The notes under the pieces are model-generated. The model made no database searches and had not been told where the DNA came from. It worked only from the letters and a program-made list of their open reading frames with translations. Shown piece by piece: positions 12,935 to 19,838 of a stretch of DNA of 64,000 bases. Position 1 is the stretch's first letter. Each line of letters begins with the position of its first letter. The translations under genes and the position numbers were made by a program. This stretch comes from Bacilli bacterium (GTDB taxonomy: Bacteria; Bacillota_I; Bacilli_A; RF39; UBA660), in the NCBI GenBank assembly GCA_017484205.1, contig JAFUTO010000033.1:1-64000 (forward strand), written 5' to 3'.

Positions 12935-14218
12935 TTACTTTAATTCAATTTTTTCTTTACCACCCATATATGGTTGTAAAGCTTTTGGAATATTGATCGT
13001 TCCATCTTCATTTACATTATTCTCAATTACAGCAATCATCCCACGAGGTGAAGCGATTACTGTGTTATTAAGCGTTGAAAGTAAATAATTTCCATTTTCA
13101 CCTTTCGCTCTAATTCCTAATCTTCTAGCTTGAGCATCTCCTAAAGTTGAGCAAGAACCGACTTCAAAATATTTTTGTTGTCTTGGACTCCATGCTTCTA
13201 CATCACATGATTTAACTTTAAGATCTGCAAGATCTCCTGAACAACATTCTAATGTTCTAACAGGAACATCTAAACTTCTAAAGAATTCAACTGTATAACT
13301 CCACATTTTGTTATACCAGTCCATAGCTTCTTCTGGCTTACATAAAACAACCATTTCTTGTTTTTCAAATTGATGAACTCTATATAGACCTCTTTCTTCT
13401 ATTCCATGAGCACCAACTTCTTTTCTAAAACAAGGTGAATATGATGTTAGAGTAATTGGCAATTCTTCTTCCTTAACAATTTGTCCTTTAAATTTACCTA
13501 TCATAGAATGTTCTGATGTACCAATTAAATATAAATCTTCATTTTCAATCTTATACATCATATTTTCCATTTCTGAAAATGACATAACACCATTAACAAC
13601 ATCACTTCTAATCATGAATGGTGGAACACAATAAGTAAATCCTTTGTCTATCATAAAATCTCTTGCATAAGATAACATAGCTGAATGTAATCTTGCTATA
13701 TCACCTATTAAATAATAGAAACCATTACCACTTGTTCTTCCTGCTGAATCTTTATCCAATCCATTAAGTGCCTCACAAATATCTGAATGATATGGTATTT
13801 CAAAATTTGGAACAACTGGTTCTCCAAATTTTTCTATTTCAACATTTTCAGTGTCATCTTTACCAATAGGAACAGAGTCGTCAATTATTTGTGGAATAAC
13901 CATCATTTTTTCTTTTAACTTTTCTGCTAAATCATTTTCTTCTCTTTCAATGTCAATAAGTTTAGAATTAATTTCATTAACTCTTTTTTTCTTTTCCTCT
14001 GCTTCTTCAGTTTTCTTTTCTCTAAATAAAGCACCAATTGCATCACTTGTGGTATTTCTTTCTTGTCTTAAAGAATCACCTTCAGCTTTGTATTCTCTTA
14101 TTTTTTTATCAAGTTCAATTACTTCATCAACAAGAGGTAATTTTTCATCTTGAAATTTCTTTTTTATATTTTCTTTTACCTTTTCAGGATTTTCTCTTAC
14201 AAATTTTATATCTAACAT
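12935..14218 (-). CDS. serS: Seryl-tRNA synthetase, complete copy
   Basis: A 427-residue class II synthetase that charges tRNA-Ser. It has an N-terminal coiled-coil arm for the tRNA variable loop (about 1-110), the serine site LIGTSEHSM, motif 2 SPCFRKEVGAHGIEERGLYR with HQFEKQE, and motif 3 TLNNTVIASPRGMIAVIENN with its essential Arg. The NTVIASPRG form differs from the usual bacterial GSGLAVGR. AAAGGATG precedes the ATG. It lies 3' of a second serS of roughly three-quarters identity that lacks motif 3, so this copy must supply SerRS activity in this window. The divergence argues for acquisition from another lineage rather than a recent tandem duplication. Confidence 0.95.
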   Translation of the reverse strand: MLDIKFVRENPEKVKENIKKKFQDEKLPLVDEVIELDKKIREYKAEGDSLRQERNTTSDAIGALFREKKTEEAEEKKKRVNEINSKLIDIEREENDLAEKLKEKMMVIPQIIDDSVPIGKDDTENVEIEKFGEPVVPNFEIPYHSDICEALNGLDKDSAGRTSGNGFYYLIGDIARLHSAMLSYARDFMIDKGFTYCVPPFMIRSDVVNGVMSFSEMENMMYKIENEDLYLIGTSEHSMIGKFKGQIVKEEELPITLTSYSPCFRKEVGAHGIEERGLYRVHQFEKQEMVVLCKPEEAMDWYNKMWSYTVEFFRSLDVPVRTLECCSGDLADLKVKSCDVEAWSPRQQKYFEVGSCSTLGDAQARRLGIRAKGENGNYLLSTLNNTVIASPRGMIAVIENNVNEDGTINIPKALQPYMGGKEKIELK

Positions 14219-14293: not shown

Positions 14294-14431
14294 ATTAAAT
14301 GCACATAGCTACAACTATTTTTAAGTTTTCTACCTTAACTTTTACTCTTCCGTTATTTTTTGTTATATATTTGAAACCGTTAAATTCCTTAGTAAATTCA
14401 AGGACTTCCACGATTCTTTCAAGTGGGTGCA
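14294..14431 (-). CDS. Possible 45-residue ORF at the serS junction
   Basis: An ATG at 14431 opens MHPLERIVEVLEFTKEF and continues to KIVVAMCI with a TAA at 14294. It starts 16 bases beyond the point where the broken serS loses homology, in a different frame from the serS tail. The amphipathic start looks coding, but no ribosome site is visible and I do not recognise it. It may be a fragment of an element gene at the insertion junction. Confidence 0.3.
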
Positions 14432-15601
14432 TATTGAAACTACGAGGTTATTTAAAGTATGTAAGTAATAATTGCCATCATCAGATTTAACTCTAATACC
14501 TAAGCGTCTAGCTTGAGCATCACCTAAAGTAGAACAAGATCCTACCTCAAAATATTTCTTTTGTCTTGGACTCCAAGCTTCTACATCACAAGATTTAACT
14601 TTTAAATCAGCTAGGTCACCTGAACAACATTCTAATGTCCTAACAGGTATATCTAAAGATCTAAAGAATTCAACTGAATAAGACCACATTTTATTATACC
14701 AATCCATAGAATCTTCAGGTTCACATAAAACTATCATCTCTTGTTTTTCAAATTGATGAACTCTATATAGTCCTCTTTCTTCTAAACCATGAGAACCACC
14801 TTCTTTTCTAAAACAAGGTGAATATGATGTCATAGCTATAGGTAAATCACTTTTTTTAATCATTTGATTTTTAAATTTACCTATCATTGAATGTTCTGAT
14901 GTACCTATTAAATATAGATCTTCACCTTCTATTTTATACATCATAGCTTCCATTTCAGGGAATGACATAACCCCTTCTACAACATCACTATGAATCATAA
15001 ATGGTGGTATAGCGTATGTAAAACCTTTACTAATCATAAAATCTCTAGCATACGCAAGCATTGCCTCATGAAGTCTTGCAATATCTCCTAAAAGGTAATA
15101 AAATCCCTCACCACTAGTTCTTCCTGCAGCTTCTTTATCCATACCATTTAATCTATTAATTATATCTGCGTGATATGGTATTTCATAATCTGGTACTAAA
15201 GGTTCTCCATATCTTTCAATTTCTACATTTTCAGTGTCATCTTTTCCAATAGGAACACTATCATCAATGATATTAGGTATCAACATCATCTTTTCTCTTA
15301 TTTTCTTTGATAAATCTTCTTCTAATGTTTCTAATCTTTTAATGTTATCATTATAAACAGCTATTTCTTCTTTTACTTTATTGGCTTCTTCAATCTTTTT
15401 ATCACGCATTAAGGCACCAATTTCATTACTCTTACTATTCTTTAAAGCTCTTATTTGATCTCCTTCAAGTTTAGCTTCTCTAAAATCTTTATCTAATGCC
15501 TCTATTTCATCTACTAGTTTCAATTTTTCATCTTGAAATTTTTTCTTAATATTTTCTTTTACTAAATCTTTATTTTCTCTTATTAATTTTATATCTATCA
15601 T
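14363..15601 (-). pseudogene. serS: Seryl-tRNA synthetase, 3' end replaced (motif 3 lost)
   Basis: The first 385 codons encode a normal SerRS, including arm, LIGTSEHSM, motif 2 SPCFRKEGGSHGLEERGLYR and VEAWSPRQKKYFEVGS. Homology stops after LHTLNN at about 14447. It is replaced by 27 unrelated residues (LVVSICTHLKES and on), so the motif 3 arginine and the C-terminal strand are missing and the enzyme should be inactive. It follows murD2 by 14 bases and is the last gene of the T-box operon starting at 18440, whose specifier UCU codes for serine. This is therefore the native, regulated serS, disrupted by recombination or insertion of the element on its left. Confidence 0.85.
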
Positions 15602-15615
15602 ACATTTCCTCCTGT

Positions 15616-16902
15616 TTACTCACTTTTTACATATTTTTGGAAATAATTACCTTTTTCCTCAAAATTCTTAAATTTATTATAACTTGATGCGGATGGGGAA
15701 AGTAAGCAAATACTTCCTTTCTTAGTAACTTTTTTTGCTAAATTAACTGCATCTTCTAGTTCTACTATTTTATATGTATTCTTTGTTATATATGGTTCAA
15801 TCCTATATCCTGTTTCAGGCATACAAATAACATTAGATACATTGCTACTATTTATATAATCTATAAGTACCTGATAATCTATACCCCTATCTTTACCACC
15901 AGTAATTAATGTATCAACATTACCTAAGGCATCAATACAATCTATTGTAGCTTCAGGTATAGTAGCAATAGCGTCATCATAATATGTTACCCCATCATAA
16001 GTACCAACATTTTCCATACGATGAGGAAGTGGTTTGAAATTAGTAATTGCCATTATACATTTATTTATATCTAATTTTAATATTTTAGCTACATTTAAAG
16101 CCATAATAATATTCATTAGGTTATGTTTACCAATAAGGTTTCTTTTATTATTAATATCATAAATTTTTTCTTCATCAATAGTAATATAATTATCCTTAAT
16201 ATCATCTAAAGATACTGGTATTTTATGCCCTTTATATTTATCTTTCATAATAGTATCTAATTCTTTATTATCATGAGAATAAATACTATAGTCATTACTA
16301 CTTTGATATTTAAATATATTTAGTTTAGCATTATAATATTTTTCTAATGTACCAAAATGATCTAAATGTTCTTCAAATAAATTTGTTATGACACCTATAT
16401 GTGGTGAATGTTTAACATATTCTAATTGCAAAGCAGCCATCTCTATTACTAAATAACTATCTTCTTTAAATGAATCTAAATAGTCAAATATAGGAATACC
16501 TATATTACCTAATAAATAGGTATCTAATTGATTTGCTTTTAACATTTCATATATTAAAGATGTTGTTGTGCTTTTACCTTTAGATCCTGTTATACCTATA
16601 ATTGTACATTTACTATATTCTAATAATAATTCTAGTTCTGAACTAATCTTATTTTCAAATTTAGATATATCTATATCTTTTAAACTAATACCTGGACTTT
16701 TAATTATAATGTCATATTTATCCAAATTATCTAAATAGATATCACCATACACTCCATCTACATCTTGTTCTATTTTATCATGAACTTTTATATTAGTAAT
16801 ACCATGTTTAGTTAAATAGTTATATGTAGATTTACCTTCTTTACCAAATCCTAAAATACAAATACTTTTGTTTTTTAAATCTTTTATCATTTCATTATAC
16901 AT
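15616..16902 (-). CDS. murD2: Mur ligase, probably MurD2 (UDP-MurNAc-L-Ala : L-glutamate ligase)
   Basis: A 428-residue Mur ligase. It has the N-terminal nucleotide-substrate domain (LGFGKEGKSTYNYL), the ATP loop GITGSKGKSTTT (about 106), the NLFEEHLDHFGTLEKYYNAK region that positions the carbamylated Lys, and the C-terminal DDAIATIPEAT and GGKDRGIDY motifs. MurD adds glutamate to UDP-MurNAc-L-Ala in the cytoplasm. Its partner gene directly upstream is murL, overlapping by 16 bases. In organisms with MurL the cognate ligase (MurD2) uses L-Glu, and MurL then epimerises it. The assignment to MurD2 rests on this pairing. AAGGAG lies eight bases before the ATG. Confidence 0.85.
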   Translation of the reverse strand: MYNEMIKDLKNKSICILGFGKEGKSTYNYLTKHGITNIKVHDKIEQDVDGVYGDIYLDNLDKYDIIIKSPGISLKDIDISKFENKISSELELLLEYSKCTIIGITGSKGKSTTTSLIYEMLKANQLDTYLLGNIGIPIFDYLDSFKEDSYLVIEMAALQLEYVKHSPHIGVITNLFEEHLDHFGTLEKYYNAKLNIFKYQSSNDYSIYSHDNKELDTIMKDKYKGHKIPVSLDDIKDNYITIDEEKIYDINNKRNLIGKHNLMNIIMALNVAKILKLDINKCIMAITNFKPLPHRMENVGTYDGVTYYDDAIATIPEATIDCIDALGNVDTLITGGKDRGIDYQVLIDYINSSNVSNVICMPETGYRIEPYITKNTYKIVELEDAVNLAKKVTKKGSICLLSPSASSYNKFKNFEEKGNYFQKYVKSE

Positions 16903-18221
16903 TTTAAATTCTCCTTTATAATATCTTCATATTCTTTAGGAAGATTATTAATCTCATTATAATTATTTTCTAATGGTTCTTCTACCATATCATAATTATC
17001 TTTATAGTATTTTAATAAATATGGTAATTCATCTAATTTATTTATAGTTAATGATATAGCGTATCTTACTTCCTTTATAGTACCAACACATTCAAAAGGT
17101 TTTGTTTTGGCATCTCCTATTAACTCTTTGAAGATTGGAAGTAGTGATTCATCTTCGTATAAGTCTTTACCAAAAATGTCTACTAATGAATCTTTATATA
17201 ATTTTGGACTTAATACTATATATACAAATAAGCATTTAGCACACTTGCCACACCATACCCAAGGTGTTTCTTTACTACCAACATTACAACTTTTAAATAC
17301 TTTATGATATTTTTTATAATTACTAAATAATAATGATATTTGAAACTCTGATAATGGTCTTAAAAAACTAAAATATTTAATATCTATATTAAAGAATTTC
17401 TTAGTATATTCATTAAAATCATTTTCATATTCATAAGTTTTACTATATTGATGATTTATCTTTGTACCAATAACTGTACTTTCATTAGAACTATCCTCAT
17501 TAGATAAAACTATGTACTTTTTATTTGTTAAATATGCCATTAAATATGTAACAAAAGATACTAATGATGAGAATGGTGTATGACCGTTTAAATATCCTTC
17601 ATTATTTAACTCAACAATTTTTCTATCTAATATTCTTCTTATAGTAATTATCTCATCATCAGTATAACCTGCTTCATAAGCACATTTTAAATGTGTTTCT
17701 TTAGGATTTATAATAAATGGTGTATTATCCATATCTTTTAGAAGTTCCAAAGATACACAAGAGTCTTTACCACCACCTATAGGTATTAAATTACCATGAC
17801 CGTTATAGTCTACTTTGTATTCTTTTTCTACACCATTAACTTCTATATCCATAAAATCATCAATAGATATATCTATATTATTGACATAGAAAAATTCACC
17901 TAAACCATAATAATATAGTTTTTTAAAGAAAGATATTTGTTCATTATTTATATATCCTGCATTTATTATTACCTTTTTAGGACATGCACATTTCCAATAA
18001 CTTATAAGTTCTACTAAGCCAATATGAAAAATTAAGTATTTAGAAAATTCATCTATATCTTTTTTAATAACTTTCTTATCTATTTTATAACTTGGTTTAA
18101 AAGTAGTTAAACCTGGTATTTCAAAATAATAAGTTATATTTATAGATTCATTGTCTTCTTTTATTTCATATTTATCATATATAAACTCAGTATACTTATT
18201 TCTTAACTCTTCAAAATTCAT
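16887..18221 (-). CDS. murL: MurL, UDP-MurNAc-L-alanyl-L-glutamate epimerase
   Basis: A 444-residue PP-loop ATPase-fold protein with IPIGGGKDS at about 146-154. MurL-type signatures are NGHTPFSSLVSF, LSNEDSSNE, KINHQYSKTYEYE, YFSFLRPLSE, KSCNVGSK, the Cys pair in WCGKCAKCLFV and PFECVGTIKEVR. Known MurL enzymes use ATP and Mg to invert the terminal L-Glu of UDP-MurNAc-L-Ala-L-Glu to D-Glu, replacing the MurI route. It is the first gene of an operon with murD2 and the native serS. A serine T-box directly upstream controls it. Finding this pathway in a Firmicute-like genome is less usual than in Xanthomonas and some Actinobacteria. Confidence 0.88.
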   Translation of the reverse strand: MNFEELRNKYTEFIYDKYEIKEDNESINITYYFEIPGLTTFKPSYKIDKKVIKKDIDEFSKYLIFHIGLVELISYWKCACPKKVIINAGYINNEQISFFKKLYYYGLGEFFYVNNIDISIDDFMDIEVNGVEKEYKVDYNGHGNLIPIGGGKDSCVSLELLKDMDNTPFIINPKETHLKCAYEAGYTDDEIITIRRILDRKIVELNNEGYLNGHTPFSSLVSFVTYLMAYLTNKKYIVLSNEDSSNESTVIGTKINHQYSKTYEYENDFNEYTKKFFNIDIKYFSFLRPLSEFQISLLFSNYKKYHKVFKSCNVGSKETPWVWCGKCAKCLFVYIVLSPKLYKDSLVDIFGKDLYEDESLLPIFKELIGDAKTKPFECVGTIKEVRYAISLTINKLDELPYLLKYYKDNYDMVEEPLENNYNEINNLPKEYEDIIKENLKCIMK

Positions 18222-18479: not shown

Positions 18480-19838
18480 TTATTTTAGAGTTTTCACTTT
18501 TTCAGAAGTAATTATAGGATTATCTAATCGATAATTAATTCTTTTAATATATTCATATCTCATATCTTTTAATATTGCCTCTGCAACTAAGAAAGATACC
18601 TCTCTTTGATTTTTATTGGTTGTATCAAATGAATGAATATTTAATTCATCTTTTAATAAATTTGTCATATTGTTAAGTGCTTCATTATACTCATCAACAT
18701 TTTTTTCATTTAGAAAATGTCTTGGTTTCAATGAAAGATTAGCCTTATAATCTCTTTTTATGGCTTCTTTACTACCTACATAAGTAGATATAATAGTATG
18801 AATTCCTTCTTTTATGATAGGAATATATATATCTTTATATGTTTCATAATTTTCATCACTAATACCATTTTCAGTATGTAATCTATCTATCCATACCAAT
18901 CTATCAAATAATGACCTATCTATTAAGATAACATCTGGATTACTACTTACTGCTTTAGTTAACTGTTTAAATACATGTATAGGAATTATACTATTAATGA
19001 CATCTTTTGGTTCATCTTTTATAGAAGGATATAATCCTTCTTTGTATTCTTTAGATGTTGTAAATTCTTCCAATAAAGTAACCTTCATTCCACTTTTCTT
19101 AAAGAAATCATATAAATTATTTATAAGTGTAGTCTTACCTGTTCTAGGTGTACCTGTAAATTCTATAACATAAGGTGTGGTATCAAAAGTATTTTTAAGC
19201 TTATATATTTCTTTGCTCATAGAATCTAACTTTTTTAATTCTTTATATTCTTCTTCTCCAATTATTTCATTTTTTAAATAATCATTTTCTTTTTTATAGA
19301 AAACACTATCGATTAATTCTTTCAATTCTTTAAACATTGGTAAATTAGAATCTTCATTTGTAATTAAACTATTATATATACTTTCATAATACCATTTTTG
19401 CTTATCTTCGCCTCTTTTGAATGCACCAAAATCATATTCACCTTTTTTATCAAATAGTATCATGAGATCTTCTAAATTACTTATTTTATCTGCACATACA
19501 ACTGCTTTATGTCTTAAATCTAATGATTTAATTCCTTCTATAGTATGGAGTTTTCTTTCTTCCCAAGATAAACTCTTATCAGGTTCTGATGCACCCAATA
19601 CTAAACTAGCAACATCATCACCAAATTTGCCTTCTATATCTTGAATAGTATAAGATGTATCTTCAACTACATCGTGAAGATATCCTGCCGCGATAACATT
19701 ATCATCAAAACCATATTTTTCTATTATATGTCCTACGTTAATAGGATGAATAATCATTGGTTTATCAGGTTCTGTCTTCCTTTTTTGTCCTTCATGTGCC
19801 TCTATAGCATAGTTAAGTGCTTCCGCTTTAATATTCAT
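18480..19838 (-). CDS. HD-domain hydrolase fused to a P-loop kinase
   Basis: A 452-residue two-domain protein. Residues 1-190 are an HD phosphohydrolase of the SpoT-like type: HPINVGHI, the metal-binding HDVVEDT at 55-61 and ADKISNLEDL. Residues from about 215 on form a P-loop kinase or ATPase with Walker A GTPRTGKTT, ILIDRSLFDR as a DRS-type motif and a helical lid (KRDYKANLSLKPRHF). Neither a (p)ppGpp synthetase nor a TGS domain is present. The combination suggests nucleotide turnover or salvage, perhaps removal and transfer of phosphate on small nucleotides. Its kinase half resembles the protein at 46919-47668 (GLPRTGKS). The substrate is unknown. Confidence 0.8.
   Translation of the reverse strand: MNIKAEALNYAIEAHEGQKRKTEPDKPMIIHPINVGHIIEKYGFDDNVIAAGYLHDVVEDTSYTIQDIEGKFGDDVASLVLGASEPDKSLSWEERKLHTIEGIKSLDLRHKAVVCADKISNLEDLMILFDKKGEYDFGAFKRGEDKQKWYYESIYNSLITNEDSNLPMFKELKELIDSVFYKKENDYLKNEIIGEEEYKELKKLDSMSKEIYKLKNTFDTTPYVIEFTGTPRTGKTTLINNLYDFFKKSGMKVTLLEEFTTSKEYKEGLYPSIKDEPKDVINSIIPIHVFKQLTKAVSSNPDVILIDRSLFDRLVWIDRLHTENGISDENYETYKDIYIPIIKEGIHTIISTYVGSKEAIKRDYKANLSLKPRHFLNEKNVDEYNEALNNMTNLLKDELNIHSFDTTNKNQREVSFLVAEAILKDMRYEYIKRINYRLDNPIITSEKVKTLK

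Follow-up and report, generated by a model that had tools for sequence, protein, structure and literature searches.

The window analysed here, a stretch of 64,000 nucleotides, is contig 34 of the 34-contig, 1.27 Mb assembly of a small-genome Bacilli MAG from a gut bacterium. Two overlapping open reading frames, murL and the ligase gene murD2, lie on its reverse strand (Table 1), with exactly the limits given in the original prediction. The start of murD2 falls inside the end of murL, the overlap being 16 bases, and the AAAGGAG ribosome-binding site of murD2 sits in the tail of murL. A good Shine-Dalgarno sequence also precedes murL, the motifs of the pair being AGGAGG (murL) and AAGGAG (murD2). 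Directly behind murD2 are two tandem serS genes, the first of which is probably a decaying duplicate because its C-terminal end, including motif 3, is lost with no continuation in any frame; a genome of the same genus has a single serS at the place adjoining murD2. The reverse-strand frame at 18480-19838 encodes an HD domain (RelA/SpoT type) and a thymidylate-kinase-like C-terminal part in one protein.

Table 1. Features of the murL-murD2 locus (positions are those of the window).
Feature	Position	Strand	Length or residues	Assignment
murL	16887-18221	-	444 aa	NF041275 profile match and X. sacchari comparison
PP-loop GGGKDS of MurL	17760..17777	-	149-154	Predicted ATP pyrophosphate-binding loop
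CNVGSKETPWVWCGKCAKC of MurL	17232..17288	-	C312, C324, C327, C330	Predicted QueC-type zinc site, C(x)11CxxCxxC
murD2	15616-16902	-	428 aa	TIGR01087 match; clade of X. sacchari MurD2
Stereospecificity position of MurD2	16369..16371	-	E178	Equivalent to E. coli MurD D182, X. oryzae MurD2 E197
Stereospecificity position of MurD2	15967..15969	-	I312	Equivalent to E. coli MurD K319
MurD2 residue	15886..15888	-	R339	Equivalent to E. coli MurD K348, X. oryzae MurD2 R358
MurD2 residue	15679..15681	-	Y408	Equivalent to E. coli L416, X. oryzae F435
Tandem serS genes	12935-14218 and 14363-15601	-		Directly behind murD2
HD-domain and thymidylate-kinase-like protein	18480-19838	-		RelA/SpoT-type HD domain

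The MurL signatures that had been noted in the longer of the two frames were confirmed both by profile and by direct comparison. The NCBIfam MurL profile NF041275 matched the protein with 237 bits (E 2e-70), a score under the profile's own cut-off of 700 that we do not hold against the assignment, because this cut-off is specific to the Xanthomonadales for which it was set. By BLASTP the protein shares 33% identity over 324 amino acids (E 6e-60) with the annotated MurL of Xanthomonas sacchari. Across 62 MurL homologues 53 residues are invariant, 44 of which are also present in X. sacchari MurL, and the PP-loop, NGH, NHQ.SK, SCN...WC..C.KC and KPFECVG motifs of the MurL of X. oryzae and its relatives are all found in the protein of the window. 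No Pfam family matched MurL at E 0.001; DUF6395 gave weak matches for 21 of 25 MurL members. The context is also that of a MurL, with a MurD-type ligase adjoining and MurI absent from the genome.

The adjoining ligase matched the MurD profile TIGR01087 with 316 bits, over its cut-off of 212. It shares with canonical MurD the Mur ligase fold, the P-loop, H183, the carbamylated-lysine position K198 and T321, but differs from it in having I for K319, E for D182 and Y for W/L416. Mutagenesis of X. oryzae MurD2 assigned stereospecificity to the pair E197 and R358 (D182 and K348 in E. coli MurD), the double mutant E197D/R358K turning the enzyme back to D-Glu, while K319T in E. coli MurD lets L-Glu in (PMC8788868). 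The ligase of the window has the E, the R and the non-lysine residue at K319 that mark a MurD2, and lacks the Lys of canonical MurD at this last position; its E/I/R triad is identical in X. sacchari MurD2, the annotated neighbour of the MurL of that species. Only the E is informative of the E/R pair, because the canonical MurD of the host family also has R at the K348 position. At the K319 position all 25 MurL-linked ligases of the host family have I or L, as against K or E in 40/40 rows of canonical MurD (37 distinct family sequences plus E. coli, mainly best MurD matches), and 75 ligases adjoining named MurL loci have I (72) or L (3), the window ligase being kept in both of the MurL-linked counts. 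The L416 position in the host family is Y in nearly all MurL-linked ligases and W in nearly all canonical ones. In a tree, 100 of 100 MurL-linked ligases, including that of X. sacchari, grouped in a single clade (support 0.98) that excludes canonical MurD. The expectation that the ligase is probably L-Glu specific thus agrees with residues of the L-Glu type and with the grouping with X. sacchari MurD2, and we infer from these sequence characters that it is a MurD2-type, L-Glu-adding enzyme.

A MurD2-type ligase was present at every one of the 105 MurL loci inspected. In 24 of the 26 family genomes that carry the pair, the ends of murL and murD2 share 4 to 28 bases, the exceptions being G019, where the genes are 2 bases apart, and G090, where one gene separates them. 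The order murL then murD is identical in X. sacchari (overlap of 20 bases), and the same order with overlapping ends is found in X. oryzae (XOO_1319/XOO_1320) and its relatives (PMC8788868, PMC5808125). Identity to these known systems is 33% over the MurL core and 26% for the ligase, and the window ligase has Y instead of F at the L416-equivalent. MurL and MurD2 distances were correlated over 100 pairs (Spearman 0.79; 0/500 shuffles as high), and an uncultured Bacteroidia MAG (RUG14460) contains a MurL-MurD2 fusion in a single reading frame of 897 amino acids (L172:3974-6667), the two parts being joined by a linker of some 35 residues, perhaps an inserted repeat. The pair lies within a cell-wall gene cluster in G019, G020 and G090, adjoining rsmH and the gene for a PBP2x-type protein, murG, or murE and mraY. 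A record from human faeces labelled 'Bacteriophage sp.' (L197, MT836755.1) also carries murL-murD2 and probably represents DNA of bacterial origin that entered a virome assembly. Plasmids of Pseudonocardia encode a MurL homologue with no Mur ligase (L196:3764-5164); this homologue, with K152R, N212I and further changes at otherwise invariant places, probably has a different function.

In the host assembly, which is 92.5% complete, family searches detected no MurI (TIGR00067 or PF01177), no D-amino-acid or class-IV aminotransferase (PF01063 or TIGR01121) and no second MurD, the window ligase being the sole MurD. The genome check for murI and a second murD had been set beforehand as the one that could overturn the MurL-MurD2 reading; neither gene was present, and the prediction that MurI would be missing held. 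The absence of MurI could be an assembly gap, given the completeness of the assembly; a genome of the same genus is likewise devoid of MurI. MurC, MurE, MurF, Ddl, MraY and MurT are encoded elsewhere in the genome, and since MurC, MurE, MurF, Ddl and MraY are present, this is a wall pathway whose only MurD is the window ligase. Apart from MurL-MurD2, the D-Glu source of this pathway is missing. Two MurF-like genes were found, one a clear MurF and the other MurF-like, and MurE is represented by two full paralogues and a third, short copy beside one of them (L005, L008 and L006; contigs C2 and C33).

MurL and MurI never occurred together among the 145 genomes of the host family, MurL being found in 26 and MurI over cut-off in 49. 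The corresponding proportions (MurI in 0/26 MurL genomes and in 49/119 others) give a Fisher p of 7e-6 with shared ancestry ignored, or of 9e-7 when limited to MurD-bearing genomes, relatedness again being ignored. Two MurL genomes of the family gave weak TIGR00067 matches, and three carry PF01177 proteins of another, aspartate-racemase-like kind. MurI over cut-off was similarly found in 0/50 MurL-bearing genomes from named records of Bacilli, Clostridia and Bacteroidales, a few of which duplicate genomes of the family survey; nine of the 50 had weak matches. Conversely, 44 of 112 MurD-bearing family genomes (e.g. G001, G005, G007, G029 and G036) have no MurL, no MurI over cut-off and no D-amino-acid aminotransferase, and only three of these 44 have a PF01177 racemase of any kind; another D-Glu source must therefore exist in the host family. 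Because these genomes lack both MurL and MurI, MurI absence alone is weak evidence that MurL supplies D-Glu, and it is the ligase residues that carry the argument for the MurL-MurD2 route. Six MurL genomes of the family (G012, G030, G060, G082, G109 and G141) have a canonical MurD as well, with K or E at 319, but no MurI, and are possibly transitional states or mixed bins. One further genome, with a canonical MurD and no MurL, has a glutamate racemase gene interrupted by stop codons (G026:C1:13278-13975).

The many family members with MurD and no known D-Glu source, which must rely on scavenging or on an unknown racemase, together with the best profile match of the window ligase being canonical MurD, would suit an ordinary D-Glu-adding MurD in the host as well, with D-Glu taken up by scavenging or supplied by a racemase that has escaped recognition and the MurL-like protein otherwise employed. 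We consider this very unlikely, as the ligase lacks the K319-equivalent, has the MurD2 residue set, clusters with X. sacchari MurD2 rather than with canonical MurD from the host family, and belongs to a type linked to MurL at all loci inspected. Slightly less probable still is a MurL-MurD2 pair that serves a side product, e.g. a secondary envelope peptide, while another route builds the main wall, which the canonical MurD of the six MurL genomes might suggest but which fits poorly with a host whose sole MurD is the window ligase and in which the other cytoplasmic Mur steps searched are all present, or with the pair's place inside cell-wall gene clusters in three genomes. We put at approximately 0.93 the probability that the host makes the D-Glu of its wall via the coupled murL-murD2 pair, without free D-Glu.

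Reviews place the pathway in some Gammaproteobacteria, Alphaproteobacteria and rare actinobacteria (PMC8788868), and our host, a Bacilli MAG, differs in this from the known carriers, although, like X. oryzae and its relatives, it combines the E/I/R ligase residues with a genome devoid of MurI and Dat. When species genomes were scanned with the MurL alignment, at least 581 relatives were confirmed; the 80 matches listed are from Bacilli, Erysipelotrichaceae, Clostridia, Lachnospiraceae, Ruminococcaceae and Bacteroidales, mostly MAGs but including two cultured genomes. The original prediction named Xanthomonas as the genus in which the pathway was described; its view that the pathway is sporadic elsewhere does not stand, since at least several hundred species genomes of Bacilli, Clostridia and Bacteroidales carry it. 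We found no report of MurL in these three groups in the open literature. The pathway itself is thus known, from Xanthomonas, and what is new is the better-grounded mechanism and the wider range of MurL-MurD2, a pair that is common in uncultured gut Firmicutes and Bacteroidales and probably replaces the usual glutamate racemase there.

The AlphaFold model of MurL (pLDDT 95, pTM 0.93) gave no match below E 0.001 with Foldseek. With a second structural aligner, QatC was the best match (Z 18.8 and 18.3; 317 residues, spanning 9-402), followed by QueC (Z 13.1 and 12.6) and Cap9 (Z 12.2), the remaining PP-loop proteins scoring about 9 or less; the QatC match takes in part of an N-terminal domain that QatC has but QueC does not. 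Sequence by itself does not establish the link to QueC: PF06508 (Pfam QueC) matched none of 25 MurL when the limit was relaxed to E 5, in a profile comparison with a single E. coli QueC the alignment was confined to the Cys motif (probability 5%), and a sequence search of solved structures with MurL returned nothing better than a weak match to TtuA (E 0.08). The GGGKDS loop of MurL, invariant in the 62 MurL and in X. sacchari, sits where QueC has SGGxDS, and its four cysteines, equally invariant, form a C(x)11CxxCxxC motif, these being close but not exact variants of SGGxDS and of the QueC zinc motif C(x)8CxxCxxC (PMC13329287). QatC (of qatABCD defence) and QueC (PMC13279940, PMC13329287) resemble MurL in predicted fold, place of the PP-loop and zinc-type C..C..C motif, but a 7-deazaguanine substrate is not expected for MurL, QatA/B/D neighbours are absent, and outside the Cys motif the sequence similarity is undetectable; PADLOC gave no defence match. 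Two recent papers on the QueC family mention neither MurL nor an epimerase, and we found no paper that links MurL to QueC in fold or mechanism. Since reviews give MurL no known domains, the fold offers a structural handle on how it works.

We propose that murL and murD2 would act as a translationally coupled pair that provides peptidoglycan with its D-Glu residue, no free D-Glu being involved, ordinary L-Glu being attached first by MurD2 and then flipped in place. MurL, as a QueC/QatC-fold PP-loop ATPase, would adenylate the alpha-carboxylate of the terminal L-Glu (ATP to AMP and PPi) and make the alpha-hydrogen more acidic; exchange of the alpha-proton on the acyl-adenylate would then be followed by hydrolysis. 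QueC acts on a carboxylate with ATP, and conversion of ATP to AMP is reported for MurL, so an acyl-adenylate route is the natural reading. The two reactions, with ATP consumed to AMP and one-way conversion of L to D, come from published studies of the enzymes of Xanthomonas and Micromonospora (for X. oryzae, PMC8788868), and by analogy MurL and MurD2 of the window would perform the same ones; the PP-loop and zinc details are likewise inferred. For the acid-base role, likely candidates are polar residues that are invariant and also present in X. sacchari MurL, such as K77, H214, E242, H257, K261, E266, C378 and E384, the choice among them being guesswork. If true, the QatC/QueC fold would give MurL a concrete adenylation mechanism. 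It seems quite likely that MurL is a QatC/QueC-type PP-loop peptide epimerase and that the pair is the normal D-Glu route in hundreds of MurI-less gut species of Bacilli, Clostridia and Bacteroidales.

All wall synthesis depends on a supply of D-Glu, a step that is also a drug target. The MurL route has been regarded as confined to a small number of genera, most of them pathogenic, and hence as a narrow-spectrum target (PMC8788868), an argument that is weakened because the route is widespread in gut commensals, with collateral effects on the gut flora predicted. For RF39-type Bacilli, in which gaps in peptidoglycan precursor synthesis have been predicted (PMC10868615), MurL-MurD2 may represent one concrete patch.
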